Of a stretch of 64,000 bases of DNA, positions 8,424-58,557 are shown in pieces. The position numbers and the translations under genes are program-made. The notes below the pieces were generated by a model that had not been told where the DNA came from, did not search any database, and saw nothing but the letters and a program-made list of their open reading frames with translations. The stretch covers positions 1,612,001 to 1,676,000 of the forward strand of contig NZ_CP065138.1 in NCBI RefSeq assembly GCF_015693305.1. The letters run 5' to 3'. This DNA is from Sphingobium sp. Cam5-1. Its GTDB lineage: Bacteria; Pseudomonadota; Alphaproteobacteria; Sphingomonadales; Sphingomonadaceae. Position 1 is the stretch's first letter, and each line of letters begins with the position of its first letter.

Positions 8424-8434
8424 AATAGCTTTTG

Positions 8435-10996: not shown

Positions 10997-11100
10997 CATT
11001 CAATCAAGAGGTACGGCCACCTCAACCCAACACACTAAGAAGCGGCCGCCACCGGGCCTGGGGGCGACCGCTTCCCAGCCCCCCGCTCGGGGCTGTCTCG

Positions 11101-12681: not shown

Positions 12682-12793
12682 CTTCGTAGCTCCATTGAAT
12701 TGGCGCGCCGCCCGTGGGCACGCGGGTCCGCTTGCCGGACGATACGACCCGAAGGCCCGGCATGTCAGCGGTCAAATTGTCAGGTGAAACCCC

Positions 12794-12828
12794 CGCCGGG
12801 CCGGGGAGTTGCTCGACCCGGCCCGGCG
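12794..12828 (-). terminator. GC-rich hairpin between ahpC and ahpF (attenuator or partial terminator)
   Basis: A perfect 12-bp stem, CGCCGGGCCGGG / CCCGGCCCGGCG, with an 11-base loop lies 17 bp after the ahpC stop. There is only a weak T-run after it in the ahpC direction, so it may act as partial terminator or RNA-stabilising structure that sets the ahpC:ahpF ratio. Confidence 0.6.
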
Positions 12829-12844
12829 AAAGGTCAGGTTTTGC

Positions 12845-13408: not shown

Positions 13409-13525
13409 GGGCTTTCCAGTTCCTTCTTAGGGTTGCTGTTGCCCGGCCTATGTAGGGAGGTCGCTACCCAAGGGGAAATTGCTTTTATTCACACCTGTTA
13501 TTGAGAAAAGCGATCACCAGCCACA

Positions 13526-43836: not shown

Positions 43837-45171
43837 TTAGCCCGGGACGACTTCTTCCATGTCGGGGGTCGGCGGCAGTGGCTTGCCTGCCATGGCAGCC
43901 GCGAAACGCTCGCGGTCGAGGCCCTTCTCCCACGCCGACACGACCACCGTCGCGACCGCATTGCCGATGAAGTTGGTGAGGCTGCGGCATTCGCTCATGA
44001 ACCGATCGACGCCGAGGATCAGGGTCATGCCCGCGACCGGCACGGACGGGACGATCGAGAGCGTGGCGGCGAGCGTGATGAAACCTGCGCCCGTAACGCC
44101 CGCCGCGCCCTTACTGGACAACATAGCGACCAGCAGCAGCAGGATTTGGTCCCCGATGCTCAAATGGACGTTGGTCGCTTGCGCTATGAACAGCGCCGCC
44201 AGCGTCATGTAGATGTTGGTGCCGTCGAGGTTGAAGCTGTACCCCGTCGGCACCACCAGCCCGACGACTGACTTGCGGCACCCTGCCCTTTCCATTTTCT
44301 CAATCAGGCTGGGCAGCGCGGCTTCCGATGAAGATGTGCCGAGGACGAGCAGCAGTTCCGCCTTCAGATAGCGGATGAGGTGCAGGATATTGAAGCCGAT
44401 CAGCTTGGCGACAAGGCCCAGCACGACCAGCACGAACAACAAGGATGTGAGGTAGAAGGTCGCGACCAACTCCGCGAGGTTCGCCAGTGCGCCCACGCCA
44501 TATTTGCCGATGGTGAAGGCCATGGCGCCAAGCGCGCCTATAGGGGCCGCCTTCATCAGGATCGACACCAGCTTGAAAATGGCGTGGCTGGCCGATTCCA
44601 GTATCTGCATGAGCGGATCCGCCTTGTCACCGATCAGGGTCAGGGCGATGCCGAACAATATGGCCACGAACAGCACCTGAAGGATGTTGTGACCATCCGC
44701 GACGGCCGAGATCAACGTGGCGGGGATGATGTCCATGAGGAAGCCGATGAGCGACCGGTCATGCGCCTGCTGCTGATATTCCGCGACCTTGCCCGCGTCG
44801 AGTGTCGCCGGATCGACGTTCAGCCCCGCGCCCGGATGCACGACATTGGCGACGATCAGCCCGACGATCAGCGCAAGGGTGGAAAAGGTGAGAAAGTAAG
44901 CGAATGCCTTCGCCGCCACCCGCCCGATCGCGCCCAATTCCTTCATGCCCGCGATGCCGGTCACGATGGTGAGGAAGATGACCGGCGCGATGATCATCTT
45001 CACCAGCTTGATGAAGGCGTCGCCAAGCGGCTGGAGCGCAACGCCCGTTTGCGGGAAGAAATGGCCGATCAGTACCCCGATCGCGATGGCGGCGAGCACC
45101 TGCACGTAAAGCTGGCGGTAAAAGGGCAGCGGCGCGGCTGCTCCTCCCGCTGCGTTGTGGATGTCCTTCAT
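43837..45171 (-). CDS. dctA: C4-dicarboxylate:cation symporter
   Basis: A 444-residue DAACS-family inner-membrane carrier for succinate, fumarate and malate. It has '[20 protein letters not shown]', '[20 protein letters not shown]', '[20 protein letters not shown]', the serine-rich re-entrant loop '[20 protein letters not shown]', '[20 protein letters not shown]' and '[20 protein letters not shown]', and '[20 protein letters not shown]'. All DctA signatures are intact. ATG 45171 is the family start. Its end is 8 bp from cpdR (convergent). No dctB/dctD sensor genes are adjacent. Confidence 0.95.
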
Positions 45172-45296
45172 GCCGACGGCGCCCCCTGTTTTCCCCGCAC
45201 AATATGGGCTGCACACCCTCTGTCCAGAGAATTAGCTTTTAAGCGAATTTCGCGCTTGCACACCCCACCACCCCCCGCTATTGGCGCAACTCCCGT

Positions 45297-45371
45297 GGGC
45301 GTGTAGCTCAGTGGTAGAGCACTGTGTTGACATCGCAGGGGTCGCAAGTTCAATCCTTGCCACGCCCACCA
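45297..45371 (+). tRNA. tRNA-Val (anticodon GAC), CCA encoded
   Basis: Full cloverleaf: acceptor GGGCGTG / CACGCCC, D-stem GCTC/GAGC with loop AGTGGTA, anticodon stem CTGTG/CGCAG around loop TTGACAT with anticodon GAC, T-stem GCAAG/CTTGC with loop TTCAATC, then ACCA. It is followed by a terminator hairpin and then, 540 bp on, by an integrase gene, the classic layout of a tRNA used as attachment site. Confidence 0.95.
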
Positions 45372-45376
45372 TCGAA

Positions 45377-45410
45377 AACCCCGTCAAATCAACGGTTTGG
45401 CGGGGTTTTT
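45377..45410 (+). terminator. Rho-independent terminator after tRNA-Val
   Basis: Stem AACCCCGTCAAA / TTTGGCGGGGTT with a 7-base loop and a T-run ending at 45410. Confidence 0.88.
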
Positions 45411-45456
45411 GTTTGCCCGAAGACGGCGTTCAGTCCTGCCGTGCCCACGACTTTTC

Positions 45457-45505
45457 TGGGCAAATTTTGGGCAAATTGCACCCTGTTTGGGCAAATTCTG
45501 GGCAT
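45457..45505. repeat. Direct repeats TGGGCAAATT between tRNA-Val and integrase
   Basis: Three perfect copies of TGGGCAAATT (45457, 45468, 45488) and a partial fourth (TGGGCAT at 45499) lie in 49 bp. Position between attachment site and integrase fits arm-type binding sites of a tyrosine recombinase. The rest of the 542-bp gap up to the integrase shows no supported gene. Confidence 0.6.
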
Positions 45506-45913
45506 GGAAATGCCGGGCGAACCCCGCGAAATCCCGATTCGTTCGCGCCTCGCAGACGCGGTCGCGCAGAGCCGCATGATGCCTCATCATCGACCGACGG
45601 ACGGGTCGTTTCTACGGTTGCGCATCGGGCGCATATTACGCCAGCGAAACGGTGCTGCGTCACCACAAAGCAGGCAATCTCACCTGCAGGCAAAAGAAGA
45701 CACGCTGCCTTCGAGCTCCATAGAGCCCGCGATCCCCCAACACACACAAGCCTTCGAAGTCTCGTGGCACTCTTTCTTAGGCCAGCATGGCCGACGCCGT
45801 GCGTGCACCGGAATGTGCCACATCTTCACGAAACATGGCGTGTCTCGCCTTCAGGAATGCGGGTAAATCCGCGCGGCGGAGGCGCGACATCACATCCGAC
45901 TGGAAAAGATCAC

Positions 45914-46951
45914 ATGCTTTCAATCCGTACCCGTGGGAAGAAAGGCATCTACTATATTCGAGGTTCGGTCTCGCTTGGGGACAAGCATATCGAGGTCCAA
46001 GAGTTCAGCCTGAGGACAACCGATCGCGATGCGGCGGCCCATCTGATGGCGGAGCATGAAACGAAGCTGCGTCACCAGCTCATGTTCGGTCCCGCTGCGC
46101 TCGTCGCTCAAGGAACCATCGCCGACGCATTCGATAGCTATCTGTCAAAGGCCAAGCCTCCTTGCGCGTCCGACATCCTGCGCATCGGCAAACTGAATGG
46201 CATCATCGGCGACTTCAGCCTGCGCGAACCCAAACAGGCATGGGAGCATTTTCGCCGCGCTTACCTGACCGGCCATGACCCGGGTGGTCAGGATCGTTAT
46301 CGGTCGGTGTTTCAGGCAGCGATCAATGTCCATTACGATCTGCACGATCTTCCGCCGCTGCGGATCAAGGCAATCCCGTTCAACAATGAGCGGGTGCGCT
46401 TCCTTAGCAAGGAAGACCGCGATCGGCTGATCGCAGCCTATTCACCTCACATCCAGCCGATTATCATCATGCTGGCGTTCCAGGGTCCGCGGATCCAGAC
46501 AGCCTTGCAGATACAGTGGGGCGTCGACGGGATCGACATGAAGGAAAGATCGATCCGGCTCAATCACAGCAAGAACGCAGTCATCAAGTCGGTGCCGATG
46601 CATCCTCGCCTGTTCGATGTGCTTCGGCCGATCTGGGAAAAACGAGGACGGCCGACAAAGGGCCACGTCTTTCTCAACCGGTTTGGCAAACCATATTCGG
46701 ACACGCGCAAGTCGAAGATCCCCGGCGGCAATCCGATCAAGAACCAGCATGCGACGGCCTGCAAGCGCGCGGGGATCGAGGATTTCACCGTTCATGACTG
46801 GCGCCATCACTGGGCGTCTCACTGCGTCATGGCGGGCATCGATCTCATCACCATCATGAACATGGGCGGCTGGAAGTCACTGCGGATGGTCCAGCGCTAT
46901 TCCAGCGTCAGCGTGGATCACATGCGCGAGTCCATCAACAAATTGAGCTGA
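45914..46951 (+). CDS. tyrosine-type site-specific recombinase (integrase)
   Basis: A 345-residue integrase. The N-terminal half holds a short arm/core-binding part (MLSIRTRGKKGIYYIRGSVS, 'RTTDRDAAAHLMAEHETKLR'); the catalytic half has 'VRFLSKEDRDRLIAAYSP', box I arginine in MLAFQGPRIQTALQIQW, 'KNAVIKSVPMHPRL' (beta-hairpin Lys), 'FTVHDWRHHWASHCVMAGID' (H-x-x-R) and 'MNMGGWKSLRMVQRYSSV' with the nucleophilic Tyr. Box I is unusual (R-I-Q-T instead of R-x-x-E). ATG 45914 with GGAAAAG upstream is chosen; the frame upstream to 45281 crosses the tRNA and is not real. It would have inserted the following element at the tRNA-Val 3' end. Confidence 0.9.
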   Translation: MLSIRTRGKKGIYYIRGSVSLGDKHIEVQEFSLRTTDRDAAAHLMAEHETKLRHQLMFGPAALVAQGTIADAFDSYLSKAKPPCASDILRIGKLNGIIGDFSLREPKQAWEHFRRAYLTGHDPGGQDRYRSVFQAAINVHYDLHDLPPLRIKAIPFNNERVRFLSKEDRDRLIAAYSPHIQPIIIMLAFQGPRIQTALQIQWGVDGIDMKERSIRLNHSKNAVIKSVPMHPRLFDVLRPIWEKRGRPTKGHVFLNRFGKPYSDTRKSKIPGGNPIKNQHATACKRAGIEDFTVHDWRHHWASHCVMAGIDLITIMNMGGWKSLRMVQRYSSVSVDHMRESINKLS

Positions 46952-46963
46952 AGGGAGCGGGCC

Positions 46964-47002
46964 AAAAGGTGGAATCGGCGGCGGGAACCGGCTCCACTTT
47001 TT
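46964..47002 (+). terminator. Hairpin terminator after the integrase
   Basis: AAAAGGTGGA / TCCACTTTTT arms around a GC-rich inner loop, ending in a T-run, 13 bp after the integrase stop. Confidence 0.65.
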
Positions 47003-47049
47003 TGCTCCACTTGGAGAAGAATGGCCGCTCGGGATGGCATGACAGAGGG

Positions 47050-47337
47050 TCAGGCTGCAAGCAGCGGATCTATTTCCTTTATGTCCGCTGCGTCCGTCAC
47101 CAGTAGGTCATAATGCGCCTGAAGGTTTAGCCAGAACTCAGCGGTCGTGCCCAGCGCCCGCGCCAGCCGCATAGCGGTATCAGTGGTGACGGAAGTCTCC
47201 TCCGCACATAGGCGCTCGATCCGCGTGCGGGGTACATGGATATGCTTTGCCAGCTTCCCCGCGCTAATACCCATTTCCTCCAAAAATTCATGCTTCAGGA
47301 TTTCGCCGGGATGGACCGGCACTTGCAGCATGGTCAT
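47050..47337 (-). CDS. higA: HigA-family antitoxin (addiction-module Xre), partner toxin decayed
   Basis: A 95-residue antitoxin: 'VPVHPGEILKHEFLEEMGIS', 'AGKLAKHIHVPRTRIERLCA', 'EETSVTTDTAMRLARALGTT' and 'AEFWLNLQAHYDLLV' are textbook HigA/VapI. AAGGAG stands seven bases before ATG 47337. In normal loci higB precedes higA by a few bases; here only the last 32 codons of a higB remain (47351-47449). So the gene is an orphan antitoxin, which could still repress its promoter or protect from a related toxin elsewhere. Confidence 0.92.
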   Translation of the reverse strand: MTMLQVPVHPGEILKHEFLEEMGISAGKLAKHIHVPRTRIERLCAEETSVTTDTAMRLARALGTTAEFWLNLQAHYDLLVTDAADIKEIDPLLAA

Positions 47338-47350
47338 GAGCGTTCTCCTT

Positions 47351-47449
47351 TCAATGGTAGTCCACGATTTCAACATTGTCCGGGCCATTATCGCACCAAG
47401 TGAAACAGATGCGCCACTCGGCCCACTGAATTGGACGTACCCGTCCGCG
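47351..47449 (-). pseudogene. HigB toxin relic (C-terminal third only)
   Basis: Directly upstream of higA a frame reads RGRVRPIQWAEWRICF, then TWCDNGPDNVEIVDYH and TGA. This is the C-terminal part of HigB/RelE toxins (W-R-I-C-F ... V-E-I-V-D-Y-H). An in-frame stop precedes it and the Fic gene ends three bases further, so about two thirds of the toxin, including its start, are gone. Confidence 0.8.
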
Positions 47450-47452
47450 CCG

Positions 47453-48571
47453 TCACCGCCCTTTTTTGCTGGCGATCGTCAGATGATAGCGCGCGTAGCG
47501 CCGCTCGCCGACCCGATCCAGCGCGCCAAGTTCGACAAGTTCCGCTAGATCACGGGTTGCGGTCGCCGAGGCGGCATCGGTGATCGTACGATAATTGTGG
47601 GCGCTCAGGCCTCCGACGAAGCCGTCCGGTCCTTCCGCCATCATGCGGATCAACACCTTTTCCTGCCGTGCATTGATCCTGTCACGCAGACGGTCAAGCA
47701 GGCGGGTCTTTTCGATCAAGAACCGAATGCTCTCAATGGTACGCCCCTGCGCCTCCAGCACGATGTCGGCAAACCAGCCCATCCAGGCATCAATCTGGTT
47801 GGTCCGGCTAGCCTGATGCAGCTGCGAATAATAGGCCTTCTTGTGGCGGTTGATGGTGGTCGCCAAGGCGGTGAGCGTCGGCGCCTCCAGACTTTGCGCC
47901 AACGCCTTTTCCGCTATGGCGCGACCCAGGCGGCCATTGCCATCCTCGAAAGGGTGGACGGTCTCGAACCAGAGATGGGCTATCGCCGCCCGCGTGATCG
48001 CAGGCACGGGCAAGTTGGCCTGCGGCGCGCTATCGTTGAACCAAGTGATGAACCGCTCCATCTCTTCTGCCACCCGGCCTGACGGCGGCGCCTCGAAATG
48101 AACGCGGGGCGCATGCAGCGCGCCGAACACGATCTGCATGGGATTGGCATGGGTCCGATATGTGCCGATGGCTGCCAGATCGTGCCTCCCATTCATCAGC
48201 ATCTTATGCCAGTCGAACAGGAGCCGATCGGTCAACGGCTCGGCATAGCGCCTGTAGAGGTCAGCCATCAACTCGGCCGCACCGGCCTCAGCTGGATTGG
48301 AACGACGCTTGTCGGCCGCAAAGCCAAGTTGGCGGGCAATGGAGGACTGGACGCTGTAACGATCCAGAATCTCACCCTCAATGGCCGAGCTATCGACCAT
48401 TTCCTGCGAGATCAGCTCGATCACGATCCCTTGACGCGCCTCCCCATCGAGATGATGCATCGATCCGACGATGACACCGGCGCCCTTGAGAAACCGCGCC
48501 TCCCGATCGCGCAAGAGGGCCTCGTCGAAGCCGAATTGGGTCCAGTCAGAGAGTTGCCAGTTCCAAAGCAT
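47453..48571 (-). CDS. Fic family protein with N-terminal DUF4172-like and C-terminal winged-helix parts
   Basis: A 372-residue Fic enzyme that would transfer AMP or a related group to a target protein. The catalytic loop is complete: ETVHPFEDGNGRLGRAIAEK. An inhibitory motif lies N-terminal at MVDSSAIEGEILDRY ((S/T)xxxE(G/N)), which makes it a self-inhibited class II Fic. The first 100 residues ('NWQLSDWTQFGFDEALLRDR') fit DUF4172; the last 70 ('RQEKVLIRMMAEGPDGFVGG', 'TRDLAELVELGALDRVGERR') resemble a winged helix. An 8-bp inverted repeat upstream (ATAAATCA / TGATTTAT) may be its own operator. Confidence 0.93.
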   Translation of the reverse strand: MLWNWQLSDWTQFGFDEALLRDREARFLKGAGVIVGSMHHLDGEARQGIVIELISQEMVDSSAIEGEILDRYSVQSSIARQLGFAADKRRSNPAEAGAAELMADLYRRYAEPLTDRLLFDWHKMLMNGRHDLAAIGTYRTHANPMQIVFGALHAPRVHFEAPPSGRVAEEMERFITWFNDSAPQANLPVPAITRAAIAHLWFETVHPFEDGNGRLGRAIAEKALAQSLEAPTLTALATTINRHKKAYYSQLHQASRTNQIDAWMGWFADIVLEAQGRTIESIRFLIEKTRLLDRLRDRINARQEKVLIRMMAEGPDGFVGGLSAHNYRTITDAASATATRDLAELVELGALDRVGERRYARYHLTIASKKGR

Positions 48572-48591
48572 GATCGATGAAACGCCTTTCT

Positions 48592-48616
48592 ATAAATCAT
48601 GATATGCGTGATTTAT
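48592..48616 (-). promoter_or_regulatory. Inverted repeat upstream of the Fic gene, possible operator
   Basis: ATAAATCA (48592-48599) and TGATTTAT (48609-48616) are perfectly complementary with a 9-base spacer, and a further GATTTATGA follows as direct repeat. It lies 21 bp before the Fic start codon in an AT-rich stretch, as expected for an autoregulated promoter. Confidence 0.5.
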
Positions 48617-48723
48617 GATTTATGAAAGAGGCGACTATCGATCTAACGGTCGGGGCCCTCCCTCGCTTCTCTTCCACGGTTAACTCGCATCCACGATGCC
48701 CATGCCCACCGGGCAAGCCCGAT

Positions 48724-49744
48724 CTATTGGGCATCGCTCACGAGCATAGCGCAGCGCTCGCCGACGAGCGCCAACACTTGGCCTTGCGCAGTAGCAGCAG
48801 CCTCGGGGTCCGTCGCGAAGCCCGGAAGCCTGACGATTTCGACCGCGCTTGCAAGACGGTGGATCAGTTCGAAAATGGCCCTATCGGCATCGCCCTGAGG
48901 CAAGCCAATGGTGCGCGCGAGCGCCATGAAGTCTCGGCGTGCCAGTCGATCATCCTTGCCGTTGAGCTTGAGCGCCATCCGGTCGCCGCCAAGTCCGGGA
49001 AAGACTCGCGTCGTAACCGCATCATAAAGCGGCGCAAAGCGAACCGACGTGAAGGCTTCGCATCCGGTGCGGCGATCTTGAGAAGCGCGAGATTCTTGCG
49101 GTGCATATCGCCGTCAGCGATCAGCCAAGCGAACATCGCGCGACGAAACAGAGTGTCGAGGTCGGCAGCGGGATCCGTCGAGAGCGGCCGCAGCCCGCGT
49201 GCTATGCGCTCAATGATGCCCTGATATTTCGCCGATGCCGGAAGATCGAGGACCGAGCAGAAATCCTCCAGCGCGAGCCGGCGCTGATCGTCCGCGCCGT
49301 GTCGAATGTCGAAACGCTCGACAATGAGCGCGGGCGACATGCCGTCCGGCATCGGAGTGAGCACGATATTGGGCGTCGCAAAGCCGGCGGCGCGCCCCAG
49401 TTCCAGACAGAGCCATTCGATATCGGCAGCATCTCGAAGCCCGCGGTTCCGGCAGGCTTCAAAATATGAGTGAACGGTAGGTCAACGGCCGGGAGGAGAG
49501 CGCCATCGGGTGCGAGGTGCATCGGCGCCTTCATCTGGACGCCCGATAGGCGCGGCGTCTCGGCGCGGGCGAATATCCGCGCAAGGTTCTGCTCGAAGCT
49601 TTGCTCCATCGCGCCGCGCGCCGGCCCCTCGTAACGTCCGGTGAAGCAGCCGGCTTCGATGAAGCCCTCCAATCTCGTCGTCAGGATATCGGCTGGCAGG
49701 GCCGCAAGCTCATCGCAGGCTTCGACCACGGTGACATTGGACAT
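48724..49744 (-). pseudogene. HipA-family toxin kinase, inactivated by two frameshifts
   Basis: Three successive frames together read as one HipA protein. Part 1 (from ATG 49744): 'RLSGVQMKAPMHLAPDGALL', 'PFTHILKPAGTAGFEMLP'. Part 2: 'IEWLCLELGRAAGFATPNIV', 'LTPMPDGMSPALIVERFDIR', 'MFAWLIADGDMHRKNLALLK' (catalytic Asp region). Part 3: 'VRFAPLYDAVTTRVFPGLGG', 'MALKLNGKDDRLARRDFMAL'. Shifts occur near 49430 and near 49050; both are of the same sense. No hipB-like antitoxin gene is found in the 178 bp upstream, and the N-terminal subdomain also seems short. Likely a decayed toxin unless the reads are wrong twice. Confidence 0.82.
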
Positions 49745-49922
49745 ATAGCGCCGCCCGCGAAAGGATTATCTCGCTTCAAGCGCTTCGAGGATCTCAACAA
49801 TTACGAGCATCACGATCGCCTCGGCCCAGGGGGCGATCAACGCTCACGCGATCCGCCGGGATGGTTGAAGTAGGAGCAATTCTGCCCTTGCCGCCTAGGT
49901 GCGGATAAGTTATAACCGCCGT

Positions 49923-50150
49923 ATGAACAGCGCTCTCAAGATCACAAAGATTGGTAATAGCGCGGGCGTCATACTACCTCGCGATCTTTTGGCGCACCTC
50001 AATGTCCAGGTGGGTGAAACCCTTTCAGTGGTTACCACGCCCCGAGGCATAGAATTAAGTGCGGCTGCTTCCGATTTTGAAGCCCAGATGGCGACGGCGC
50101 GCGAGGTAATGCTTCGGCGCAAGCGCGCGCTCCGTGAGCTTGCCAAATAA
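49923..50150 (+). CDS. AbrB/MazE-type antitoxin (SpoVT-AbrB domain)
   Basis: A 75-residue protein with the swapped-hairpin DNA-binding domain 'LKITKIGNSAGVILPRDLLA' and 'HLNVQVGETLSVVTTPRGIE', then a hydrophilic tail ('EAQMATAREVMLRRKRALRE'), which would wrap the toxin. ATG 49923 is at the family start. The stop is 3 bp before the Doc-type toxin gene, so this is the antitoxin of that pair. Confidence 0.92.
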   Translation: MNSALKITKIGNSAGVILPRDLLAHLNVQVGETLSVVTTPRGIELSAAASDFEAQMATAREVMLRRKRALRELAK

Positions 50151-50153
50151 CCA

Positions 50154-50534
50154 ATGCAGGGTTGGATATGGGTTACTTCTGCAGTCGCCATCGCCGCTCA
50201 TGCCGAGCAGGTGGCCGAACATGGCGGGGACGGCGGCATACGGAACGAGGGGCTACTTGATAGTGCCTTGGCCCGTTCTATGAATCTCGCGGGATACGGC
50301 CAACCCGATGCCGCAGATTTAGCTGCTGCCTATGCCTTCGGCATCGCGCGGAACCATCCTTTTGTCGACGGCAACAAAAGGACCGCAGCAGTGGTGAGCG
50401 AAACATTTCTCATGCTCAATGGAAGCCAGCTGACCGCCACGGATGCCGAATTTGTGGTGGCCTTCGTCGCACTCGCGGGTGGCGAACTGTCAGAAGAAGA
50501 AATGGCTGACTGGTTCCGCCAGCACACCCGGTAG
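50154..50534 (+). CDS. doc: type II toxin, death-on-curing (Doc) family
   Basis: A 126-residue Fic-fold toxin: 'GGIRNEGLLDSALARSMNLA' and the Doc version of the Fic loop, 'FGIARNHPFVDGNKRTAAVV' (H-P-F-x-D-G-N-K-R), followed by 'ETFLMLNGSQLTATDAEFVV'. Doc proteins phosphorylate and inactivate EF-Tu. The motif is complete, so the toxin should be active and be neutralised by the AbrB-type protein, instead of the more usual Phd. No gene is evident in the 369 bp downstream. Confidence 0.94.
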   Translation: MQGWIWVTSAVAIAAHAEQVAEHGGDGGIRNEGLLDSALARSMNLAGYGQPDAADLAAAYAFGIARNHPFVDGNKRTAAVVSETFLMLNGSQLTATDAEFVVAFVALAGGELSEEEMADWFRQHTR

Positions 50535-50858
50535 GTTCCAACAGCGATCGAGATCGGTGTGCGATGAGGCTCCCGCTCAGTTCACGATTTACAGACGCTA
50601 TGATTGCTGGTCGACACTTGCGTCCCAGCCGATCATTTTCCTCATGACGATCGCTCTTTCCTATCACTTTAACCAACGGCAGGCCCTCTGCAATTCCTTC
50701 GTCATCGCGAGTTGGCGCTGGGCAGCCTTCAGTAACGAAATCTCATCTGGGGACCGCTTCGCGGATTGCCGTTAGCTCTCGCCCCCTACGATGAAGAGGT
50801 TCATGCCTTCACCTTCGCCCTTGCTAGGCGGCAGAATAGAAATCGGTCAATCTTGATA

Positions 50859-50881
50859 TTATGTACAGATATTATACATAA
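50859..50881 (+). promoter_or_regulatory. Inverted repeat before the Xre/RES genes, possible operator
   Basis: TTATGTA and TACATAA form 7-bp complementary arms around CAGATATTA, 22 bp before the antitoxin ATG and next to its ribosome site. It is a likely autoregulatory operator of the antitoxin. Its ATGTACAGATA core recurs at 52045. Confidence 0.55.
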
Positions 50882-50903
50882 GCAGCAAGAAGGAGATTGG
50901 CTA

Positions 50904-51302
50904 ATGGCGACAACAGTCCACGTCGGCACCCAAGCCACAGCCCATAGCCGCAAGGATCTCACAGGTCCGGCATTGCGCACATTCTTCCGCATTGCGGAGG
51001 CGTGGGGCCTCAAGGAAGCTGAGCAGATGAAACTTCTCGGGCTCGATAACCGCTCCACTTTTCAGACCTGGAAGCGTGGGGCGGTTGCAGCGATTCCCAA
51101 GGATGCGCTGGAGCGAATTTCCTACGTTTTGGGTATCTACAAGGGCCTGCAGATACTTCTGCCCCGCACCGCTGACGCATGGGTCCGCAAGCCCAATGAA
51201 GCTCCCTTGTTTGCTGGGCGTTCCGCGATCGAACGGATGACCTCGGGCAATGTCGCAGATCTCTATGTGGTGCGCCAATATATCGACGCTCAGCGCGGCT
51301 GA
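50904..51302 (+). CDS. MbcA/ParS/Xre-family antitoxin
   Basis: A 132-residue antitoxin of the RES-Xre type: N-terminal Xre-like helical domain ('GPALRTFFRIAEAWGLKEAE', 'QMKLLGLDNRSTFQTWKRGA', 'IPKDALERISYVLGIYKGLQ') and the MbcA/ParS C-terminal domain ('WVRKPNEAPLFAGRSAIERM', 'TSGNVADLYVVRQYIDAQRG'). AAGGAG lies nine bases before ATG 50904. Its stop overlaps the RES toxin start (TGATG). Confidence 0.94.
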   Translation: MATTVHVGTQATAHSRKDLTGPALRTFFRIAEAWGLKEAEQMKLLGLDNRSTFQTWKRGAVAAIPKDALERISYVLGIYKGLQILLPRTADAWVRKPNEAPLFAGRSAIERMTSGNVADLYVVRQYIDAQRG

Positions 51303-51985
51303 TGAAGGTCATTTCTACGGCGCTGGTGCGCTGGCAGCCGTGCTACCGGATCGTCGCAAGCCGCTTTCCCCCGATATCGCTGTTCGAGGACGTAACCGAT
51401 CCAGCCGATCTTGAGGCGGTGTACGCGATTGAAGCGCTGACTAATGATCGGCTGCGGGACGAGGTGGGGGACCTTACGCTAGTACCGCCGGAGGATCGTG
51501 TCTCGGGCCCGGGCGCCTCCGCGATCATGGCCGCCTTCACCCATCTCAATCCAGATGGAAGCCGGTTTTCCGATGGCAGCTTCGGCTCGTTCTATGCCGC
51601 CAGGGAGATCGAGACAGCGGTTGCGGAAACCAGCCATCACCGCGCGCGGTTCATGGCATACACTTCGGAACCTGCGCAGGAACTCGACATGCGCGTGTAT
51701 GCGGCCGATTTAGATGCGCTGCTGCACGACATCCGTAATCTACGTGAAGAGCATGCCGCTCTCTATGCTACGGACAGCTATGCCGCCAGCCAGGCTCTTG
51801 CGATGGAACTGCGCAGCCAAGGTTCAAACGGGATCGCCTACCAAAGCGTGCGCCACGATGGCGGCGAGTGCGTAGCGGTTTTCCGCCCTCGCCTGCTCGC
51901 CAACTGCCGCCAAGAGCGGCACCTGTGCTATGTGTGGGATGGGCGGGCGATCGTCACTGTCTACGAAAAGAAAGCATTTACCTGA
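51302..51985 (+). CDS. RES-domain toxin (NAD+-degrading type)
   Basis: A 227-residue RES protein: 'VRWQPCYRIVASRFPPISLF' at the start, then 'FTHLNPDGSRFSDGSFGSFY' with AAREIETAVAETSHHRARFM (R, S/Y and E residues of the ADP-ribosyl-like active site), and 'GSNGIAYQSVRHDGGECVAV' with FRPRLL near the end. Known RES toxins (e.g. MbcT, Res) deplete NAD+. Fully intact and translationally coupled to the antitoxin. Confidence 0.94.
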   Translation: MKVISTALVRWQPCYRIVASRFPPISLFEDVTDPADLEAVYAIEALTNDRLRDEVGDLTLVPPEDRVSGPGASAIMAAFTHLNPDGSRFSDGSFGSFYAAREIETAVAETSHHRARFMAYTSEPAQELDMRVYAADLDALLHDIRNLREEHAALYATDSYAASQALAMELRSQGSNGIAYQSVRHDGGECVAVFRPRLLANCRQERHLCYVWDGRAIVTVYEKKAFT

Positions 51986-52035
51986 ACCGGTCAGAGTTCT
52001 GGCGCAATATCGGCTAGCAATAGACCGATGAAAAG

Positions 52036-52055
52036 GTACATACGATGTACAGATA
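52036..52055. repeat. Palindrome GTACAT-ACG-ATGTAC with ATGTACAGATA core
   Basis: A 15-bp perfect palindrome lies between the convergent RES and glycosyltransferase genes. Its right part ATGTACAGATA (52045-52055) is identical to 50861-50871 in front of the Xre/RES pair, so this motif stands on both sides of the module. Confidence 0.5.
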
Positions 52056-52110
52056 CGGCTAAAGAAGGAACAGGCGGCAGATCAAGCGGAATTCCCCCGA
52101 TGATGGAGCC

Positions 52111-53235
52111 TCAACTTGACTTACGCCAGGTGAACAGGCTGCCCATCACATAGTTCCATACTGATCCCACCACTGCTCCGGCCAATCCCGCCAACCACCA
52201 GTCATAATGCGATCCAAATAGAATTTTGCCCACCCCGACGTTGGCGATCGCCCCCAGACCGCAAATCGCATAGAAACTGAGGAGGCCCGTCAGCATTCGT
52301 AGTCCCGCCAGCCTCTGATCGCGATAAGTAAAGCTGTTGTTCAATAGGAAGTTAAATGTCATAGCAGACAGTACTGCTACTGTTTGGGCGGTACCGAAAG
52401 AAAATCGCGATAATAAAGTGAACAATACCACCATGTGGATGCCCAAACCAATGGCACCTACGCAACTGAACTTGAGGAACTTGATGGGCACCAGATGGCC
52501 GATTTTTTTCTCTACAAGCATCTCCAGATATTGCAGAACAACTGTACTGTCCAGTTTACTTTCGCCATGCTGACGGGTGCGAAAGGTGTACGGAAACTCT
52601 GCAACGTCTAGCGGTCGTGATGCCGATGCCATAATGTCAAGCAAGATTTTATAGCCGATCCCGGACAAACGGGGCGCCAATTCCGTCAACGTGTCGCGTC
52701 TGACAGCAAAGAAACCGCTCATCGGATCACTGAGCGGCGTTCGTGCAATCACTTCAGCGAGCCTTGTCGCGAATGCGCTGATCCGCGCGCGCCTTTGATC
52801 CCATTTACCGATCGAGCCCTCACTCGAGTAGCGGGTTCCTACGGCCACCTCCTTGCGGTCCTCTGCGATGGCTCGATAGAGTTTTGGCAACAGCATCTCG
52901 TCATGTTGCAGATCGCCATCAATCACGGCGACAACCGGAGCTGTAGATGCCATCATCCCTTCAATCACAGCGGACGAAAGTCCGCGTCGGTTGAACCGTC
53001 GGATGAGGCGAATGCGCCGATCTGTGGCGGCTAGTTGACTAACAAGTTCCGGGGTACCGTCACGAGAGCCGTCATCGACAAACATGATCTCCCATTCGAT
53101 TTCAACTAAGGCATTGGCTACACGGTCGATCAGTTCGGTAATATTCGGGCGTTCATTAAGCACCGGCACAACGACGCACAACTCTAGCGGACGCAAGACA
53201 GTGCTAATGTCGGGCCGTTGTAGAGCGTGCTGCAT
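52111..53235 (-). CDS. GT2 polyprenyl-phosphate sugar transferase fused to GtrA flippase domain
   Basis: A 374-residue protein. Residues about 15-235 are a DPM1/GtrB-like GT2: 'LELCVVVPVLNERPNITELI', 'IMFVDDGSRDGTPELVSQLA', 'VVAVIDGDLQHDEMLLPKLY' (DXD-type), 'SDPMSGFFAVRRD' and 'YTFRTRQHGESKLD'. Residues about 250-370 are a four-helix GtrA domain ('KFLKFSCVGAIGLGIHMVVL', 'TFNFLLNNSFTYRDQRLAGL', 'WNYVMGSLFTWRK'). It would load a sugar onto undecaprenyl phosphate and flip it across the membrane. Last gene of a three-gene low-GC cassette. Confidence 0.92.
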   Translation of the reverse strand: MQHALQRPDISTVLRPLELCVVVPVLNERPNITELIDRVANALVEIEWEIMFVDDGSRDGTPELVSQLAATDRRIRLIRRFNRRGLSSAVIEGMMASTAPVVAVIDGDLQHDEMLLPKLYRAIAEDRKEVAVGTRYSSEGSIGKWDQRRARISAFATRLAEVIARTPLSDPMSGFFAVRRDTLTELAPRLSGIGYKILLDIMASASRPLDVAEFPYTFRTRQHGESKLDSTVVLQYLEMLVEKKIGHLVPIKFLKFSCVGAIGLGIHMVVLFTLLSRFSFGTAQTVAVLSAMTFNFLLNNSFTYRDQRLAGLRMLTGLLSFYAICGLGAIANVGVGKILFGSHYDWWLAGLAGAVVGSVWNYVMGSLFTWRKSS

Positions 53236-53309
53236 GAAATCCCCCCGGAGGTCGCTGCATCACCAATATACCGTACCGGTTAATGAAAGGAAAAGCAAAG
53301 ATCGCGAAA

Positions 53310-54773
53310 TCATTGATCATGTCTCAGGAGAACATTCTGAACGGCCCAATGCTCGGCTGCGTGCGGCTCGCACCCGCCCGGTCGAACGTACAGGCAAAGA
53401 TGACCATCTTCCGGACTCCATCCTGCTTCTGGGGGAGCGCATTCCAATCGACGAAAACCGTATCCATCCGGTATCGCGCCTTGAGGAGCAATAACCGCGT
53501 TGAACCCGCGCGCTGCATTTCTGAAATCGCGCAGACTCATTCGATCATCATCACTCCAGCCGGTAAGATAAGTAGGAATATCGCGATGGAGATAACTGTA
53601 TCCGCCAGTCTGCCAAAATGTGATTCGATGCAGTGCGATCCCACAACTCCCGGAGGACGTGCCATATTTCCTGGCAAGTTCCATGCCCGATCCGAAGGCC
53701 GTCCAACGCGATATCATCGGTTCGGCCAAACCCAAGCTGATTGAACTACCAAACCAAAGAAGAAGAAGCGCGAGCTTAACGAATTTTCGATTGGTCGCGT
53801 ATCGGGCAGCCAGCTCCGCGGTACCCATAGCAGCTAGAATGACAAGGATGGTAACGCTCAAAAATATGAAGCGGTATTCCTTGTGCCCTATAGCCATGTG
53901 AATCAAAATATTGATGAGAGCGGTATAAAAGATCACCCTGTTTTTCTCAATGACAGGAAGCAGAAACAAGAATATGGGCGCTGCGGTCCATCCCCAATAT
54001 TGCCAGATCATACTGAAAAAAGCTGTTGGGGGGTCGACGCCATAATTGGCCGAACGGTTCAAAAGTAGATTCTGCTGAACGTTCTCTATGATCCAACTGA
54101 AGGGTACCTGGCCCATCGTCAAATCCACCCCCGTTGAGAGGATCATTGCAACCAGGCCACCGGCAACAATATGTATCCAGCAGCGTCGGATGTGGGCGCC
54201 GCTGCTTAAAAGAAGCAAAAGTGCGATCGCCGGTGCATATTGGAAGCGCAATATGAACGCTAATCCGAGAAGAAATCCAGCCAACAGCCATTGCCGATGC
54301 GACACGTCCTTTCCTGTCAGAAGAACGGCGGCCGGCAAAATGCACCCGGTCGCCAGTACCTCAGTCAACAGATGGACCGAGAAGAATATCTGCTCAAACC
54401 AAGTCGCGGCTACAAATCCGGCGACCAGCCCTTGAAGCGGGCCCATGCGCCGGCCGAAAGTCCAAGCCGACCATGTGATCGACAGGCCTGATGCTATGGG
54501 AAGAAGCGCGGGTAACTTCGCGTACAAGATCGTCGATGGAGCCACGAAATGACCAAGTGCCACCAGCGGCGAGGCGAGTAACGGAACCAGCCAGCTTCGC
54601 ATCCCATATCGGTATTCCCAAGGCACTGTGCCATACCCGAATACGAGCCGGTGTGACTGTTCTAGATACTGAAATATCTCATCCGGATGATGCATTGAAA
54701 AGGGCAGGAGTGCCGCAACACGAACGAAAAAAGCCAAGAGCAGCAAAAGGCAAATCTGCGTTCGGCTGCTCAT
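53310..54773 (-). CDS. GT22-like membrane mannosyltransferase (GPI/Alg9-type GT-C)
   Basis: A 487-residue multi-pass GT-C glycosyltransferase. The loop after TM1 has 'MHHPDEIFQYLEQSHRLVFG' and 'YGTVPWEYRYGMRSWLVPLL', and a later loop 'MAIGHKEYRFIFLSVTILVI'; the H-P-D-E and H-K-E-x-R-F motifs are those of GT22 (Alg9, PIG-B/GPI mannosyltransferases). It would use a polyprenyl-phosphate sugar on the periplasmic side. Its ATG overlaps the stop of the upstream GT39-like gene (ATGA); a 74-bp gap separates it from the GT2-GtrA gene. AT-richer than the core genes. Confidence 0.85.
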   Translation of the reverse strand: MSSRTQICLLLLLAFFVRVAALLPFSMHHPDEIFQYLEQSHRLVFGYGTVPWEYRYGMRSWLVPLLASPLVALGHFVAPSTILYAKLPALLPIASGLSITWSAWTFGRRMGPLQGLVAGFVAATWFEQIFFSVHLLTEVLATGCILPAAVLLTGKDVSHRQWLLAGFLLGLAFILRFQYAPAIALLLLLSSGAHIRRCWIHIVAGGLVAMILSTGVDLTMGQVPFSWIIENVQQNLLLNRSANYGVDPPTAFFSMIWQYWGWTAAPIFLFLLPVIEKNRVIFYTALINILIHMAIGHKEYRFIFLSVTILVILAAMGTAELAARYATNRKFVKLALLLLWFGSSISLGLAEPMISRWTAFGSGMELARKYGTSSGSCGIALHRITFWQTGGYSYLHRDIPTYLTGWSDDDRMSLRDFRNAARGFNAVIAPQGAIPDGYGFRRLECAPPEAGWSPEDGHLCLYVRPGGCEPHAAEHWAVQNVLLRHDQ

Positions 54774-56320
54774 TTAAGATCGTTCCTGGCATATATGATT
54801 TGCTGCCTACCCGAAAACACGTCCGGCACGCGAGCGACCTTGTGATAATGTCTTCTGATGGTTTGCTCGACCATGCCAGCAGTGATCAGATTGCGGGGAT
54901 GATCCAATTCCCTATCCGCGAGCAGAATAGCTGCAGGAAGTGTCTGCAGCAGCTTTCTCATCTGCAAAGGTGCATCAACGGCGGCATTTTCGCCAGCATT
55001 GTTCAGATGCTCAGGGAAGATATATGGGGTCGGCAGACATGAAGACGTGAGCAGGTAGAGAACGGTAGGGCCGTCGTTTACATAGATGCATCCGTGTGCG
55101 GCGTAGGGGCGCAGGGCAGCGACCATCGTGTCTACACGGTGCCGACGTTCAACCGTTGCGCCCCAAATTACAAGTCCGAACAGGACTATGTACCACACGC
55201 CGCCCGCCACCAAACCGACAGCCGCACCTCCTCGCTTGAATAGAGTCCCGCTTAAGACACTCAACGGCATCAGGGCGGGCAGTGCATAATGCGGATAATT
55301 GTTGCCGACTGCAAAAAATCCGATGACCGCAGCTATCGTCCAAGATACGAGAAAGAGGTTTCTATTGTGGAACGGTCGATGAACAAGCGGTACTGCGGCG
55401 ATCAAGCCCATAATCAGCAAGGGCAGGATCGAATATATAGTACCGGCCAGAAATTGTAGTCTCAGAGCACCTTCAGGCAATACTACCCTGGTGATCGAGC
55501 GGAAGTTTGCATCAAAAAATTGGGGAAAATAGCCGATTGATGCATAGAAAAGGCCAACGGCCACCGTGGGCCCTACCGCGATACAAATTAGGAGAAACCC
55601 ATGTCGGATCACAGCAGCAGCTGAAGCACTTTCACGCCATTCTCTCCACAAAAGCCATAACCCAAAAGTTACTCCTTCGAAGACAACAGTATATTTGATC
55701 TGCAAGGCAACGCCGCAAAGCGCCATCGCCATATAAGAGCTAATGCGCGGCTGCCCGCCGCAGGAAGAATCTTGAACTCGCAGAACGAGTAATGCGGCGC
55801 ACCCCATCAGAAGATTATAAAAAACCGGTGCCTGGCCGCCCACCCCTCCCAGCAAAGGCATAAAGAGCAAATACAGGACACCGCTCAAGGTTGCGCAGAC
55901 ATTCTTGCAGAAATGCAGACAAATCCGCCTGACGATTAGTGCCGTCAGAAAAGCGCTCATCAAGGCCCCAAGTTGATAAGCGACCACCCCGTTAGGGCTA
56001 AACGGGCGCAGCAATGCGTAAACCAGAAACAGTCCGATAGGCTTACGATCCCAAATATCGACATAGGGGAGAACCCCGTGCCACATGCGATCGGCTACGA
56101 GCAGATAGAATTCTTCGTCCATATGGACCGCGGGATCAGCGATGCATGCTGCACGGGTGACCACCGCTACTGTCAAAAGGATAACCGCAGAGGGCAGCCG
56201 TCCTTCCAAAGAGAAATTCTTTTCCTTTATTTTAGAAGCGTGACCTGCCAAATGCCCCGGCATTACCGCCAATCTCCGCTTGGCATATAAATGCTTTTCA
56301 ATGATTTCTTGGTCGCCCAT
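54770..56320 (-). CDS. GT39-like multi-pass membrane glycosyltransferase
   Basis: A 516-residue GT-C protein with about 11 hydrophobic segments. The first periplasmic loop has 'ADPAVHMDEEFYLLVADRMW' and 'HGVLPYVDIWDRKPIGLFLV' (the D-E motif and D-x-K-P-P/I-G typical of ArnT/PMT-like GT39 enzymes), then 'YALLRPFSPNGVVAYQLGAL'. The C-terminal soluble part has 'HGCIYVNDGPTVLYLLTSSC' and 'PTPYIFPEHLNNAGE'. Acceptor and sugar unknown. ATG 56320 is the first start, with no clear ribosome site; MPGHLAGH, 19 codons on, is possible. First gene of the low-GC cassette. Confidence 0.87.
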   Translation of the reverse strand: MGDQEIIEKHLYAKRRLAVMPGHLAGHASKIKEKNFSLEGRLPSAVILLTVAVVTRAACIADPAVHMDEEFYLLVADRMWHGVLPYVDIWDRKPIGLFLVYALLRPFSPNGVVAYQLGALMSAFLTALIVRRICLHFCKNVCATLSGVLYLLFMPLLGGVGGQAPVFYNLLMGCAALLVLRVQDSSCGGQPRISSYMAMALCGVALQIKYTVVFEGVTFGLWLLWREWRESASAAAVIRHGFLLICIAVGPTVAVGLFYASIGYFPQFFDANFRSITRVVLPEGALRLQFLAGTIYSILPLLIMGLIAAVPLVHRPFHNRNLFLVSWTIAAVIGFFAVGNNYPHYALPALMPLSVLSGTLFKRGGAAVGLVAGGVWYIVLFGLVIWGATVERRHRVDTMVAALRPYAAHGCIYVNDGPTVLYLLTSSCLPTPYIFPEHLNNAGENAAVDAPLQMRKLLQTLPAAILLADRELDHPRNLITAGMVEQTIRRHYHKVARVPDVFSGRQQIIYARNDLK

Positions 56321-56452
56321 TGCTCTGCGTTACTTTATGATCGCACGCTAAAAAAGCTCGCTTTCCCCAAATGTGAAAAATATGGGAAAAAGGCGGGCCA
56401 ACACGCAGCATCAGAGCGGTTTGTCGGAAGCCGTAGCACGCCTTCTCAGATG

Positions 56453-58417
56453 TCAGGAGATTGTCGGCCCACTTCGCCCGCGCCCTAACCGCCACTCAGT
56501 CCCGTCCGCGCGCAATATCCCGACCGCATCCTTGCCTATATTGCGGTCGAACACATCGCGCCAAGGCACGAGCGTGAAATCGCGCGAGCGCTCGACCAGT
56601 GCATGAGCGCCGCTTTCCAGGTCCAAGCGCCGCGCAATGACGCCCTCGACGCGCTCGCCATTCCTGGCCGGCTCGAACGCCCTTCCCAGCTCCCGGCCAA
56701 GCCGCTCGCCGACGCTCTCCAACTCGCGCAAACGAAGGCTTTCCAAAGCCCCTCTCCGCAACCGGAAAGCGTGCCCGTCGCCATCGGCTAATTGCTGCTC
56801 GACAAGCCACTGCCGCCGGGTTGCCAATGCGTCCCGCACCTCGCGTCCGAACCCGGCGTTGCGCACCGCAACGGATGCGCCAGATGCCAGCTCCCGATCG
56901 AGCCAAGTAGCCGCTTCGACTCCCACCAGATCGCCGACTGGCTGCGGAGACAGGATCGCGAGCGCCACAGGGCGGTCGCGTTGTTGTCGTTGCGCGAAGC
57001 CTTCCGCCCGCGCCAAATGATCGCTTGGGATGGTCCAGCTTCCATCCTGCTGACGCTCCGGTCCGGCACCCGTGCGGCGCATTGCCTCCAAGCGCCGGAC
57101 ATGGCTTGTGGCGAAAGCTTCGCTGGCATGGGGATCATGCCGCAGATGCAAATCGACCGAATAGCGTCCGCCATTGGCGCGAGCAACCGCATCGACAGTT
57201 CGGTCAGCGGTCCTCGACTCGGCCTTCGTCGGCTCGATCCGCACCGTCGCGCCCTCAGGCACCAAAGGGGTCGCGTCCGCGCGTCCTATATCGATATAGT
57301 GGACCCGCCCATCGATGCCATCGACCATCATGTAATGGCGGTCGCGATGCTCGTCGGAAAAGCCCCGGCTGATCAACCGCCCGACGATCGGCTCGCGCAG
57401 ATCGGTGGCGACCACCTGCTCGACCCCAGCGCGGTCGAGCCGACGCGCGGTCAGTTCGCGTTGCATGAGTCGGATGATGTCGCCACGCTCACCCATGCGG
57501 CGGAGCGTGTCCTCCAGCCCTTCCGCGAGCCGATAGTGCCCGTCACCCATGTCCTCTGCGAGGTCCATCGCCTTGAGCTTACGCAGGCGCCCCGCCGCCA
57601 CCGATTGCTGGAGGGGGTCGTTGTCGGTCGCCGCCACCGAGCGATCGGCGTCCATCCGCCGGAGCAGACGCCGGTCGATCGCGGTCAGCCGTTCCTGATC
57701 CACATCGTGGCGGAGGCGGTCCTCGATCTCCCGATCGGTGCGCGGCCCAAGGTCGAGCGTGACCAGCTCGCACGCGCGCTCGCGTAGGCCATGAGAAATA
57801 TACTCCCGCGCGATGATCAGATTGTCGCCCCGGTCATCCACGCCGCGCAACACGATATGGGTGTGCGGGCGTTCGGTGTTGAAGTGGTCGACAGCGACCC
57901 ACTCGAGCCTGGTGCCGAGGTCCTGCTCGACCTGCGTCATGAGGCGACGGACATAGGGCTTGAGGTCCGGATATTCGGCACCGTCCTCGGCCGACACGAT
58001 GAAGCGAAACTGGTGTCGGTCGCCGGCGGTCCGCTTCAGGAAATCATCGCCGTCGGCGCGGTCGGTTTCCGGGCCGTAGAGTTCGCCCGGCAGGCCCTCG
58101 CGCGTGACCCCGTCGCGCTGAATGTAGCGCATGTGCGCGCGAGCGGCTTGGCCGGCCTTGCCCTGCAGCCGTATCAAGCTTGCCTTCACCATCGCGCGGC
58201 GACCGCGATAGCCACCTAGCCTGTCGCGACTGGAAAGGAGCCGCCCCATGCTCGCGCCGCGCCCGATGCGGCTGCCATCGAAGCGCCGCGACTTTATGCC
58301 CGTCTTCTTGCCGGCGAGCCGTGTCGCAGCCAGGATCCGCCCGCCATATTTGAGCGTCCGCTTGCCATCATTGCCGCGCGTATTACCGAGCTTTGGCGTG
58401 AGATCATCGTCAGACAT
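56453..58417 (-). CDS. VirD2/TraI-like relaxase (DUF3363-type)
   Basis: A 654-residue relaxase that would nick oriT and pilot DNA transfer. The N-terminal HUH domain has 'KASLIRLQGKAGQAARAHMR' and 'YIQRDGVTREGLPGELYGPE' (motif I, Tyr), 'HQFRFIVSAEDGAEYPDLKP', and the metal triad 'WVAVDHFNTERPHTHIVLRG' (H...H-x-H). The long C-terminal part from about residue 280 ('RLTAIDRRLLRRMDADRSVA', 'HLARAEGFAQRQQRDRPVAL', 'SGASVAVRNAGFGREVRDAL') matches DUF3363. ATG 58417 (MSDDDLTPKLG) is preferred; the frame is open to 58537. The inverted repeats just upstream are a candidate oriT. Confidence 0.92.
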   Translation of the reverse strand: MSDDDLTPKLGNTRGNDGKRTLKYGGRILAATRLAGKKTGIKSRRFDGSRIGRGASMGRLLSSRDRLGGYRGRRAMVKASLIRLQGKAGQAARAHMRYIQRDGVTREGLPGELYGPETDRADGDDFLKRTAGDRHQFRFIVSAEDGAEYPDLKPYVRRLMTQVEQDLGTRLEWVAVDHFNTERPHTHIVLRGVDDRGDNLIIAREYISHGLRERACELVTLDLGPRTDREIEDRLRHDVDQERLTAIDRRLLRRMDADRSVAATDNDPLQQSVAAGRLRKLKAMDLAEDMGDGHYRLAEGLEDTLRRMGERGDIIRLMQRELTARRLDRAGVEQVVATDLREPIVGRLISRGFSDEHRDRHYMMVDGIDGRVHYIDIGRADATPLVPEGATVRIEPTKAESRTADRTVDAVARANGGRYSVDLHLRHDPHASEAFATSHVRRLEAMRRTGAGPERQQDGSWTIPSDHLARAEGFAQRQQRDRPVALAILSPQPVGDLVGVEAATWLDRELASGASVAVRNAGFGREVRDALATRRQWLVEQQLADGDGHAFRLRRGALESLRLRELESVGERLGRELGRAFEPARNGERVEGVIARRLDLESGAHALVERSRDFTLVPWRDVFDRNIGKDAVGILRADGTEWRLGRGRSGPTIS

Positions 58418-58452
58418 CCGGACGCCCTCCGATCTCGCGATTTCGGGCAGGC

Positions 58453-58557
58453 AATGGCGGATTTCCGCCATTCCTGAGCAACATGTCTCGTGCCGACGCT
58501 CGCCTGTCTCGCGGAAAAAGGATGTGCAGACAATCACTTACGGAGTGTCGCGAGACA
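58453..58557. other. Candidate oriT region upstream of the relaxase gene
   Basis: Two perfect 9-bp inverted repeats: AATGGCGGA-TT-TCCGCCATT (58453-58472) and TGTCTCGCG (58505-58513) with CGCGAGACA (58549-58557). On the minus strand between the second pair reads GCACATCCTTTTTCCGCG, loosely like the MOBP nick motif ATCCTG. Position in front of a relaxase gene is typical for oriT; function is inference. No gene is seen in 58418-58668. Confidence 0.45.

Follow-up and report, generated by a model that had tools for sequence, protein, structure and literature searches.

A candidate mannosylation cassette of three genes in an integrative and conjugative element of Sphingobium sp. Cam5-1

Three glycosyltransferase genes in a low-GC block

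The DNA considered here (referred to as the window) is a stretch of 64,000 nucleotides from Sphingobium sp. Cam5-1 (contig NZ_CP065138.1, positions 1,612,001–1,676,000, forward strand); all positions given below are those of the window. Three genes on the minus strand together fill positions 52111–56320 as a discrete block of low guanine-cytosine (GC) content, within a 75-kb integrative and conjugative element (ICE) at a tRNA-Val gene. Gene A (54770–56320) encodes a 516-residue membrane glycosyltransferase with a predicted GT-C fold, resembling protein O-mannosyltransferase (PMT) and ArnT. Gene B (53310–54773) encodes a 487-residue membrane glycosyltransferase of the GT22 (Alg9-like) type, and gene C (52111–53235) a 374-residue protein in which a GT2 synthase of a polyprenyl-phosphate sugar, likely mannose, is combined with a GtrA/DPMS transmembrane domain. 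The stop codon of A and the start codon of B overlap in an ATGA (54770–54773, minus strand), and B and C are separated by 74 nt. An earlier sequence-only reading of this DNA had described three open reading frames (ORFs) on this strand with the ATGA overlap, in a block richer in AT than its flanks, and this description is correct: GC content is 0.52–0.53 per kb in the block and 0.56–0.66 in the adjacent 1-kb bins. The values for the three genes are 0.520, 0.526 and 0.529. They are also low (0.51–0.56) in the copies of the trio found in two other genomes, and low GC content is, thus, a property of these genes wherever they are located. Matches to promoter and terminator consensus sequences were rarer at the block than in shuffled sequence, and PADLOC gave no defence match for A, B or C.

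A synthase related to dolichyl-phosphate mannose synthase

The protein encoded by gene C has a Glycos_transf_2 domain (PF00535) and a GtrA_DPMS_TM domain (PF04138; 62.5 bits, cut-off 26.1), both above the Pfam cut-offs, and the fusion of a synthase to a GtrA-family membrane part proposed in the sequence-only reading is, therefore, upheld. Its best solved relative is the dolichyl-phosphate mannose (Dol-P-mannose) synthase of Pyrococcus furiosus (PfDPMS; 5mlz; E 3.3e-50, residues 15–371), with ArnC (E 4.8e-13) and the Synechocystis GtrB (E 2.3e-8) both far behind. The available part of the article on PfDPMS names 13 residues that bind GDP-mannose, the metal, the acceptor phosphate or belong to the acceptor loop (PMC5526996). 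In an alignment read by hand, 12 of these residues are identical in C: E12, D39, D89, D91, Q93, H94, R117, R131, S135, K178, R202 and K208 of PfDPMS correspond to E28, D55, D106, D108, Q110, H111, R135, R149, S153, K196, R221 and K227. The exception is F177, replaced by Y195. A scripted comparison of C with 36 relatives (the window's own copy, L055, being one of them) showed the 12 positions to be invariant and the thirteenth to be occupied by Tyr or Phe. C is assigned, by sequence, to the GT2-type polyprenyl-phosphate sugar synthases and, as it is closest to Dol-P-mannose synthase rather than to GtrB or ArnC, polyprenyl-phosphate-mannose is the likely donor made by this protein. The sequence-only reading had referred to GtrB/GtrA, and this part of it is modified accordingly. 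The host genome has a GMP_PMI gene above the cut-off, which would provide a supply of GDP-mannose. The membrane domain of PfDPMS is described as dispensable for synthesis in the accessible text (PMC5526996), and a flippase role for the GtrA-type half of C, by which the lipid-linked sugar may be moved across the membrane, is, therefore, suggested by analogy with the GtrA family.

Two membrane transferases of the GT-C type

The GT22 family is best known from eukaryotic N-glycan and glycosylphosphatidylinositol (GPI) assembly, and its typical motifs are DE..Q and HKE.RF. Gene B was described as GT22-like in the sequence-only reading, and its product does match Glyco_transf_22 (PF03901) at 91.7 bits, for a cut-off of 23.8. 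Both motifs are present, and the invariant residues are D31, E32 and Q35, H297-K298-E299, and R301-F302. A single-sequence search of the Protein Data Bank (PDB) with B gave no match, but a profile search reached ALG12 at 4e-10, and the predicted model of B matches ALG12/ALG9 over its whole length, with 14–17% identity to the solved chains. Gene A is harder to place. It has no Pfam (E 0.01) or NCBIfam match, and no significant PDB match with either a single sequence or a profile. The GT39-like label previously given to it is, therefore, not supported by family models. It is the predicted fold that remains of this proposal: the model of A matches PMT and ArnT, with a GT-C fold like that of solved PMTs, at 12–16% identity. 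Residues D68-E69 are located after the first long helix, as in PMT and ArnT, the invariant residues are D68, Y72 and R92-K93-P94, and PF13231 is found in some relatives of A. The model-to-structure comparisons for A and B were second looks with VIA-align. By predicted fold, then, two GT-C transferases share an operon with C, and the set includes a lipid-sugar synthase of its own, equipped with a GtrA-type domain, much as had been claimed. A DPMS-type synthase together with an ALG12/ALG9-like and a PMT/ArnT-like enzyme makes mannose the likely sugar transferred, and B would use the polyprenyl-phosphate-mannose produced by C from the same operon.

Copies of the trio in other tRNA-Val islands

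Gene B was found in three of the 94 genomes of the genus (own genome included), adjoined each time by A and C. The identities of A, B and C are 82%, 85% and 91% in S. vermicomposti (G382, locus L002), and 67%, 73% and 85% in genome G362. Gene order, the 4-nt overlap and the 74-nt gap are identical in all three genomes. Ratios of nonsynonymous to synonymous substitution (dN/dS, Nei-Gojobori method) were 0.11–0.21 for A, 0.11–0.17 for B and 0.05–0.09 for C, indicating purifying selection, with dS values above 1.5, near saturation, in the comparisons with G362. The recurrence of this arrangement in two other genomes, together with these dN/dS values, argues that the trio is more than a chance association.

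The sequence-only reading had proposed a search for the trio in other mobile elements, and both of the further copies do, indeed, adjoin the same tRNA-Val, in islands with conjugation genes nearby. The block common with the S. vermicomposti island extends over 52115–56423 (minus strand; blastn, 85% identity), with the similarity ending at the stop codon of C on one side and some 100 bp ahead of A on the other. In S. vermicomposti, repeats delimit a stretch of 183 kb, and the trio lies 1.3 kb in from its left end; the stretch also holds TrbE-family, TrbL, TrbI and T2SSE genes (L121) and a GalU gene 90% identical to that of the window ICE. G362 has a TrbI gene some 1 kb past A (L119), and mtnN is on another contig. 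These copies were also considered as plain chromosomal genes beside an SDF symporter gene. This interpretation was rejected, because the tRNA-Val site of the window is bordered on its left by the SDF gene too, and each copy is next to that tRNA gene. RlxS, the relaxase of the window ICE, was not found in either genome at E 1e-100. A 102-residue ORF by the tRNA-Val of S. vermicomposti (L002, 13642–13950) had no Pfam match; it resembles the start of an integrase by eye, and is not claimed as one. Matches to both the tRNA-Gly and the GalU of the window ICE occur in the S. vermicomposti island.

The place formed by SDF, tRNA-Val(gac) and mtnN (43837–45371 in the window) is frequently used for integration across the genus. 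An unoccupied site, with the simple order SDF, tRNA-Val, mtnN, was present at seven of 30 loci around mtnN (genomes G340, G339, G381, G338, G371, G375 and G342). The distance from the tRNA to mtnN is less than 0.5 kb at unoccupied sites and 56–183 kb in G000, G299, G337, G380 and G382; it is 75 kb in the window genome, 114 kb in G337 and 183 kb in S. vermicomposti. The repeat copy beside mtnN matches at 25 of 25 bases in the window genome and in G337, but at 24 of 25 in S. vermicomposti. The orientation of mtnN is reversed in the window genome relative to unoccupied sites, so a rearrangement is likely and the ends of the element are to be taken as provisional.

The window element and its cargo slot

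The claim that an ICE carries the cassette is borne out by an integrase, RlxS, Trb genes and direct repeats at the tRNA-Val, the combination by which the element is classified from its sequence as an ICE. The attachment site is tRNA-Val(gac) (45297–45371, plus strand), a piece of which forms a 25-bp direct repeat, with the left copy at 45327–45351 and the right copy at window-equivalent positions 120253–120277. The tyrosine integrase ORF (45281–46951, plus strand) has PF00589 at residues 375–544; as listed, this ORF begins inside the tRNA gene, and its true start must be further in. The RlxS relaxase gene, part of the ICE-family backbone, is located at 56453–58537 on the minus strand (NF041267, 935 bits, cut-off 850), and five ORFs at window-equivalent 86–98 kb encode the type IV secretion system coupling protein, a TrbE-family protein, TrbL, TrbI and a T2SSE ATPase.

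The trio occupies a slot between a RES gene and rlxS (51987–56475). A sister ICE in genome G337, 113.7 kb long between the same repeats, shares 45206–51987 (93–99% identity) and 56491–64374 (93–95%) with the window ICE, and its slot contains 14.3 kb of other glycan genes: nucleotidyl transferase, GDP-mannose dehydratase-like, DegT, NeuB, TPP enzyme and epimerase genes, a GT2 gene, two methyltransferase genes and a gene for a 516-residue protein with no Pfam match. This sugar cluster is locus L161 (G337:C1:2545000-2563000), 719–13702. The ORF region beside the slot in the window (50895–51985, plus strand; PF20432, PF09722 and PF08808) is 92.9% identical at the DNA level in G337. RlxS is present in 50 of the 94 genomes of the genus. 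At 14 RlxS loci, two of which reach less than 1.5 kb into the slot side, DNA similarity stops at or inside the end of rlxS, and none of these 14 slots contained A, B or C, except for a 33% GT2 match to C in L161. Two other RlxS slots appear, by eye, to contain non-glycan cargo, an observation that argues against dedication of the slot to glycan genes.

The trio is not the only surface-glycan cargo of the window ICE, as a low-GC capsule-type cluster lies near its right end, with Poly_export, an ABC exporter, GT2 genes and a UDP-galactopyranose mutase gene. This cluster and GalU extend over window-equivalent 99588–116493 (L086, L087), and one ORF (110171–111007) has a GC content of only 40%. The left end of the ICE (47453–51985) bears adjoining genes for a Fic protein, which matches the PADLOC SoFic model, a second Fic/Doc protein, and Xre-RES.

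Relatives of the three genes in the family, on plasmids and in phages

A sample of 298 genomes of the family was searched, the counts below being those at the cut-offs used and including the own genome unless otherwise stated. The number of genomes was 12 for B, 61 for A and 172 for C. With the own genome excluded, C was found in 59 of 60 genomes with A and 11 of 11 with B, as against 171 of 297 overall, and the sole genome with A and without C has only a fragment of A, at a contig end. At no fewer than 19 of 85 places (18 genomes), A has C within 1 kb, B places have A nearby in at least three of 12 cases and C in at least one of 12, and relatives of A and B often occur apart. Relatives of B at 63–76% identity are also present in metagenome contigs (P0003–P0006). 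Many relatives of A and C are found between atpD and cpaF, with atpD at seven of 29 A loci in the family scan (L026–L054) and four of nine in the genus scan (L109–L117); C is there on its own in genome G274, and cpaF is followed by B in G021. In many sphingomonads (L095, L096, L103, L122–L125 and others), the interval from atpD to cpaF contains PMT/ArnT-like genes, some accompanied by a DPMS-GtrA gene and some not. Given how common A/C pairs are in the family, the parts are widespread sphingomonad stock, joined here as a trio. The surroundings of B relatives were scanned in eight genomes and on one plasmid, at one to three proteins per locus; the 20 proteins are mixed (T2SSE, phytase, OprB, pyruvate kinase, P450, ABC and others), and no acceptor could be read from them.

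A parallel with phage gtr operons had been drawn in the sequence-only reading, and it has proved weak. Among 50,697 phage records, B had no match, A had one at 35% and C had 27, all partial; no viral contig was confirmed (0 of 55, and 0 of 11 pattern stretches). Plasmid records matched B three times, at 36%, and A in 21 records; at the DNA level, the match was confined to a piece of A of 104 bases, in three records. None of nine plasmid regions examined had A and B together, and one had a C-like gene by A; no phage or plasmid examined carries the trio. This one region lies on a Gluconobacter plasmid typed as mobilizable (NZ_MZ127818; L006, 5331–7524), where a gene annotated as polyprenol monophosphomannose synthase overlaps the relative of A. 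On plasmid CP099622 (L004, 5857–10049), a GT22 relative of B (36%) is followed by a gene for a 353-residue protein and a HAD-UbiA fusion, with a relaxase and a RES/DUF2384 pair nearby. The GT22 gene occurs in three records, of plasmids from Arabidopsis-leaf sphingomonads, of which this one was examined. The HAD-UbiA arrangement makes polyprenyl-phosphate-ribofuranose in C. youngae, according to the available part of the source (PMC11127046), and the CP099622 GT22 protein is perhaps a furanose-sugar enzyme.

Proposed mechanism and alternative explanations

The results of these analyses make it fairly probable that the trio is a portable cassette for periplasmic mannosylation, with one lipid donor and two GT-C enzymes. 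C would convert GDP-mannose into polyprenyl-phosphate-mannose at the inner face of the membrane, and its GtrA-type half, or another protein, would move the lipid-linked mannose across. A and B, with an acidic loop on the outer side, would then each add a sugar, probably mannose, to a surface glycan, a glycolipid or a protein. That both draw on a single donor is suggested by the operon and by their dependence on C in other genomes. The three genes would travel as a block in integrative elements using one tRNA-Val gene and, as the block fills a variable slot beside the relaxase gene in an RlxS-type ICE, transfer of the element could change the surface of the recipient. The synthase step is the best supported by sequence, and the sugar, flipping, acceptor and effect are putative. 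A broader proposal, possible but tentative, is that tRNA-Val elements, and the RES-rlxS slot in the RlxS type, exchange surface-glycan modules as complete units (the mannosyl trio in this case and the NeuB/DegT/nucleotide-sugar cluster in the sister ICE), such that conjugation rather than phage lysogeny drives serotype-like conversion in sphingomonads, the GT22 and PMT/ArnT-like pair acting as one module.

Several observations weigh against mannosylation by a mobile cassette of this kind. A is about equally close to ArnT, an aminoarabinose enzyme, and to PMT, and the host encodes two further GtrA proteins. The presence of C in all 11 genomes with B is a figure based on few, related genomes. 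In genus g25, which accounts for four genomes with B, neither A nor C lies within 1 kb of B; C is 0.3–0.7 Mb away in three genomes and on another contig in the fourth, implying that neither cooperation with A nor a shared operon with C is required for B. (The g25 genomes are of 2.1 Mb; an OprB porin gene adjoins B in G170, L098, and an ORF of similar length is present in L099 and L102.) The plasmid relative of B near HAD-UbiA implies that a GT22-like sequence need not mean mannose. Finally, transposase genes flank the S. vermicomposti trio on both sides, so insertion sequence elements may have been as important as the ICE for its spread.

The acceptor might be a protein, with A a PMT-like protein O-mannosyltransferase and B elongating the protein-linked mannose, in which case no polysaccharide or lipid would be modified. 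The fold of A would suit this, and its equal closeness to ArnT would suit it less; we consider it unlikely, if worth bearing in mind. Some sphingomonad glycosphingolipids contain mannose. These lipids, which replace lipopolysaccharide in sphingomonads, could themselves be the acceptor, with A and B adding outer hexoses, and they bear uronic acid and a further hexose, according to the accessible part of one source (PMC13318209). This is rather improbable: no sphingolipid enzyme was detected with Pfam among the 20 scanned neighbours of B relatives, and B is patchy, in 12 of the 298 genomes. About equally improbable is a Gtr-like system for another sugar, such as glucose from UDP-Glc, with C as a GtrB-type enzyme and A and B as serotype-converting transferases. 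C does match PHROG 841 (GtrB-like O-antigen conversion), sugar specificity is hard to infer from sequence for GT2 enzymes, and PfDPMS itself is described as partly, if weakly, active with other donors in the available text (PMC5526996). However, C resembles DPMS over nearly its whole length and retains the mannose-contacting residues, including that equivalent to H94, its acceptor loop is ungapped relative to DPMS whereas that of GtrB is three residues shorter, and B is a GT22 protein. The least probable explanation, and a quite unlikely one, is that of passengers co-captured by chance and with no joint function. The frequent separation of A and B relatives and the other kinds of cargo seen by eye in RlxS slots would be in keeping with it, but the arrangement is constant in three genomes and three different islands, and purifying selection is apparent in all three genes.

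If the cassette functions as proposed, it would provide a compact bacterial polyprenyl-phosphate-mannose pathway with a GT22 enzyme, and an example of changes in surface sugars, of a kind usually attributed to phages, being spread by conjugative elements. It would, in addition, allow a direct test of whether the product of a DPM synthase is flipped by the GtrA-type domain fused to it.

Comparison with known systems

The open-licence literature searched yielded no report of this trio or of a bacterial GT22 protein with a DPMS-GtrA protein. Its closest parallels are the three-component glycosylation systems (GtrA/GtrB/Gtr*, and the CsbB/GtcA/YfhO type of Gram-positive bacteria), in which, from the parts of the sources available, a polyprenyl-phosphate sugar synthase, a GtrA-family part and a GT-C enzyme are likewise encoded together (PMC8035078, PMC11127046). 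In the trio, unlike these systems, synthase and GtrA domain form one protein, the synthase is closest to mannose enzymes, there are two GT-C genes of different families, and the genes are borne by an ICE or island rather than a phage. Phage gtr serotype-conversion operons differ in this same respect, the window trio being located neither in a phage nor in a prophage but in an ICE that has a relaxase gene and Trb genes. The pentofuranose three-component systems (Kelly et al., 2024; PMC11127046, available part) have the same logic of a lipid-phosphate-sugar and a GT-C enzyme, and a HAD-UbiA protein like theirs lies near the plasmid relative of B, whereas the window cassette has no UbiA gene and its donor would be made by a GT2 enzyme.

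The individual proteins can be compared in the same way. C shares with the type-III DPMS of P. furiosus a GT2 domain and a C-terminal membrane domain, a similar length and all but one of the 13 active-site residues, but it is bacterial, lies inside a glycosyltransferase operon and is known here from its sequence. B has the family domain, motifs and whole-length fold match of the GT22 enzymes ALG9, ALG12 and PIG-B, but is a bacterial protein of low identity to them, and its acceptor is presumably not a dolichyl-diphosphate N-glycan. A shares the GT-C fold and the position of D68-E69 with PMT (GT39) and ArnT (GT83), but differs from them in being matched by no family model and in its low identity. 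The trio is, thus, a variant of multi-component transmembrane glycosylation: the enzyme types are known and their combination is new, but the kind of system is not.

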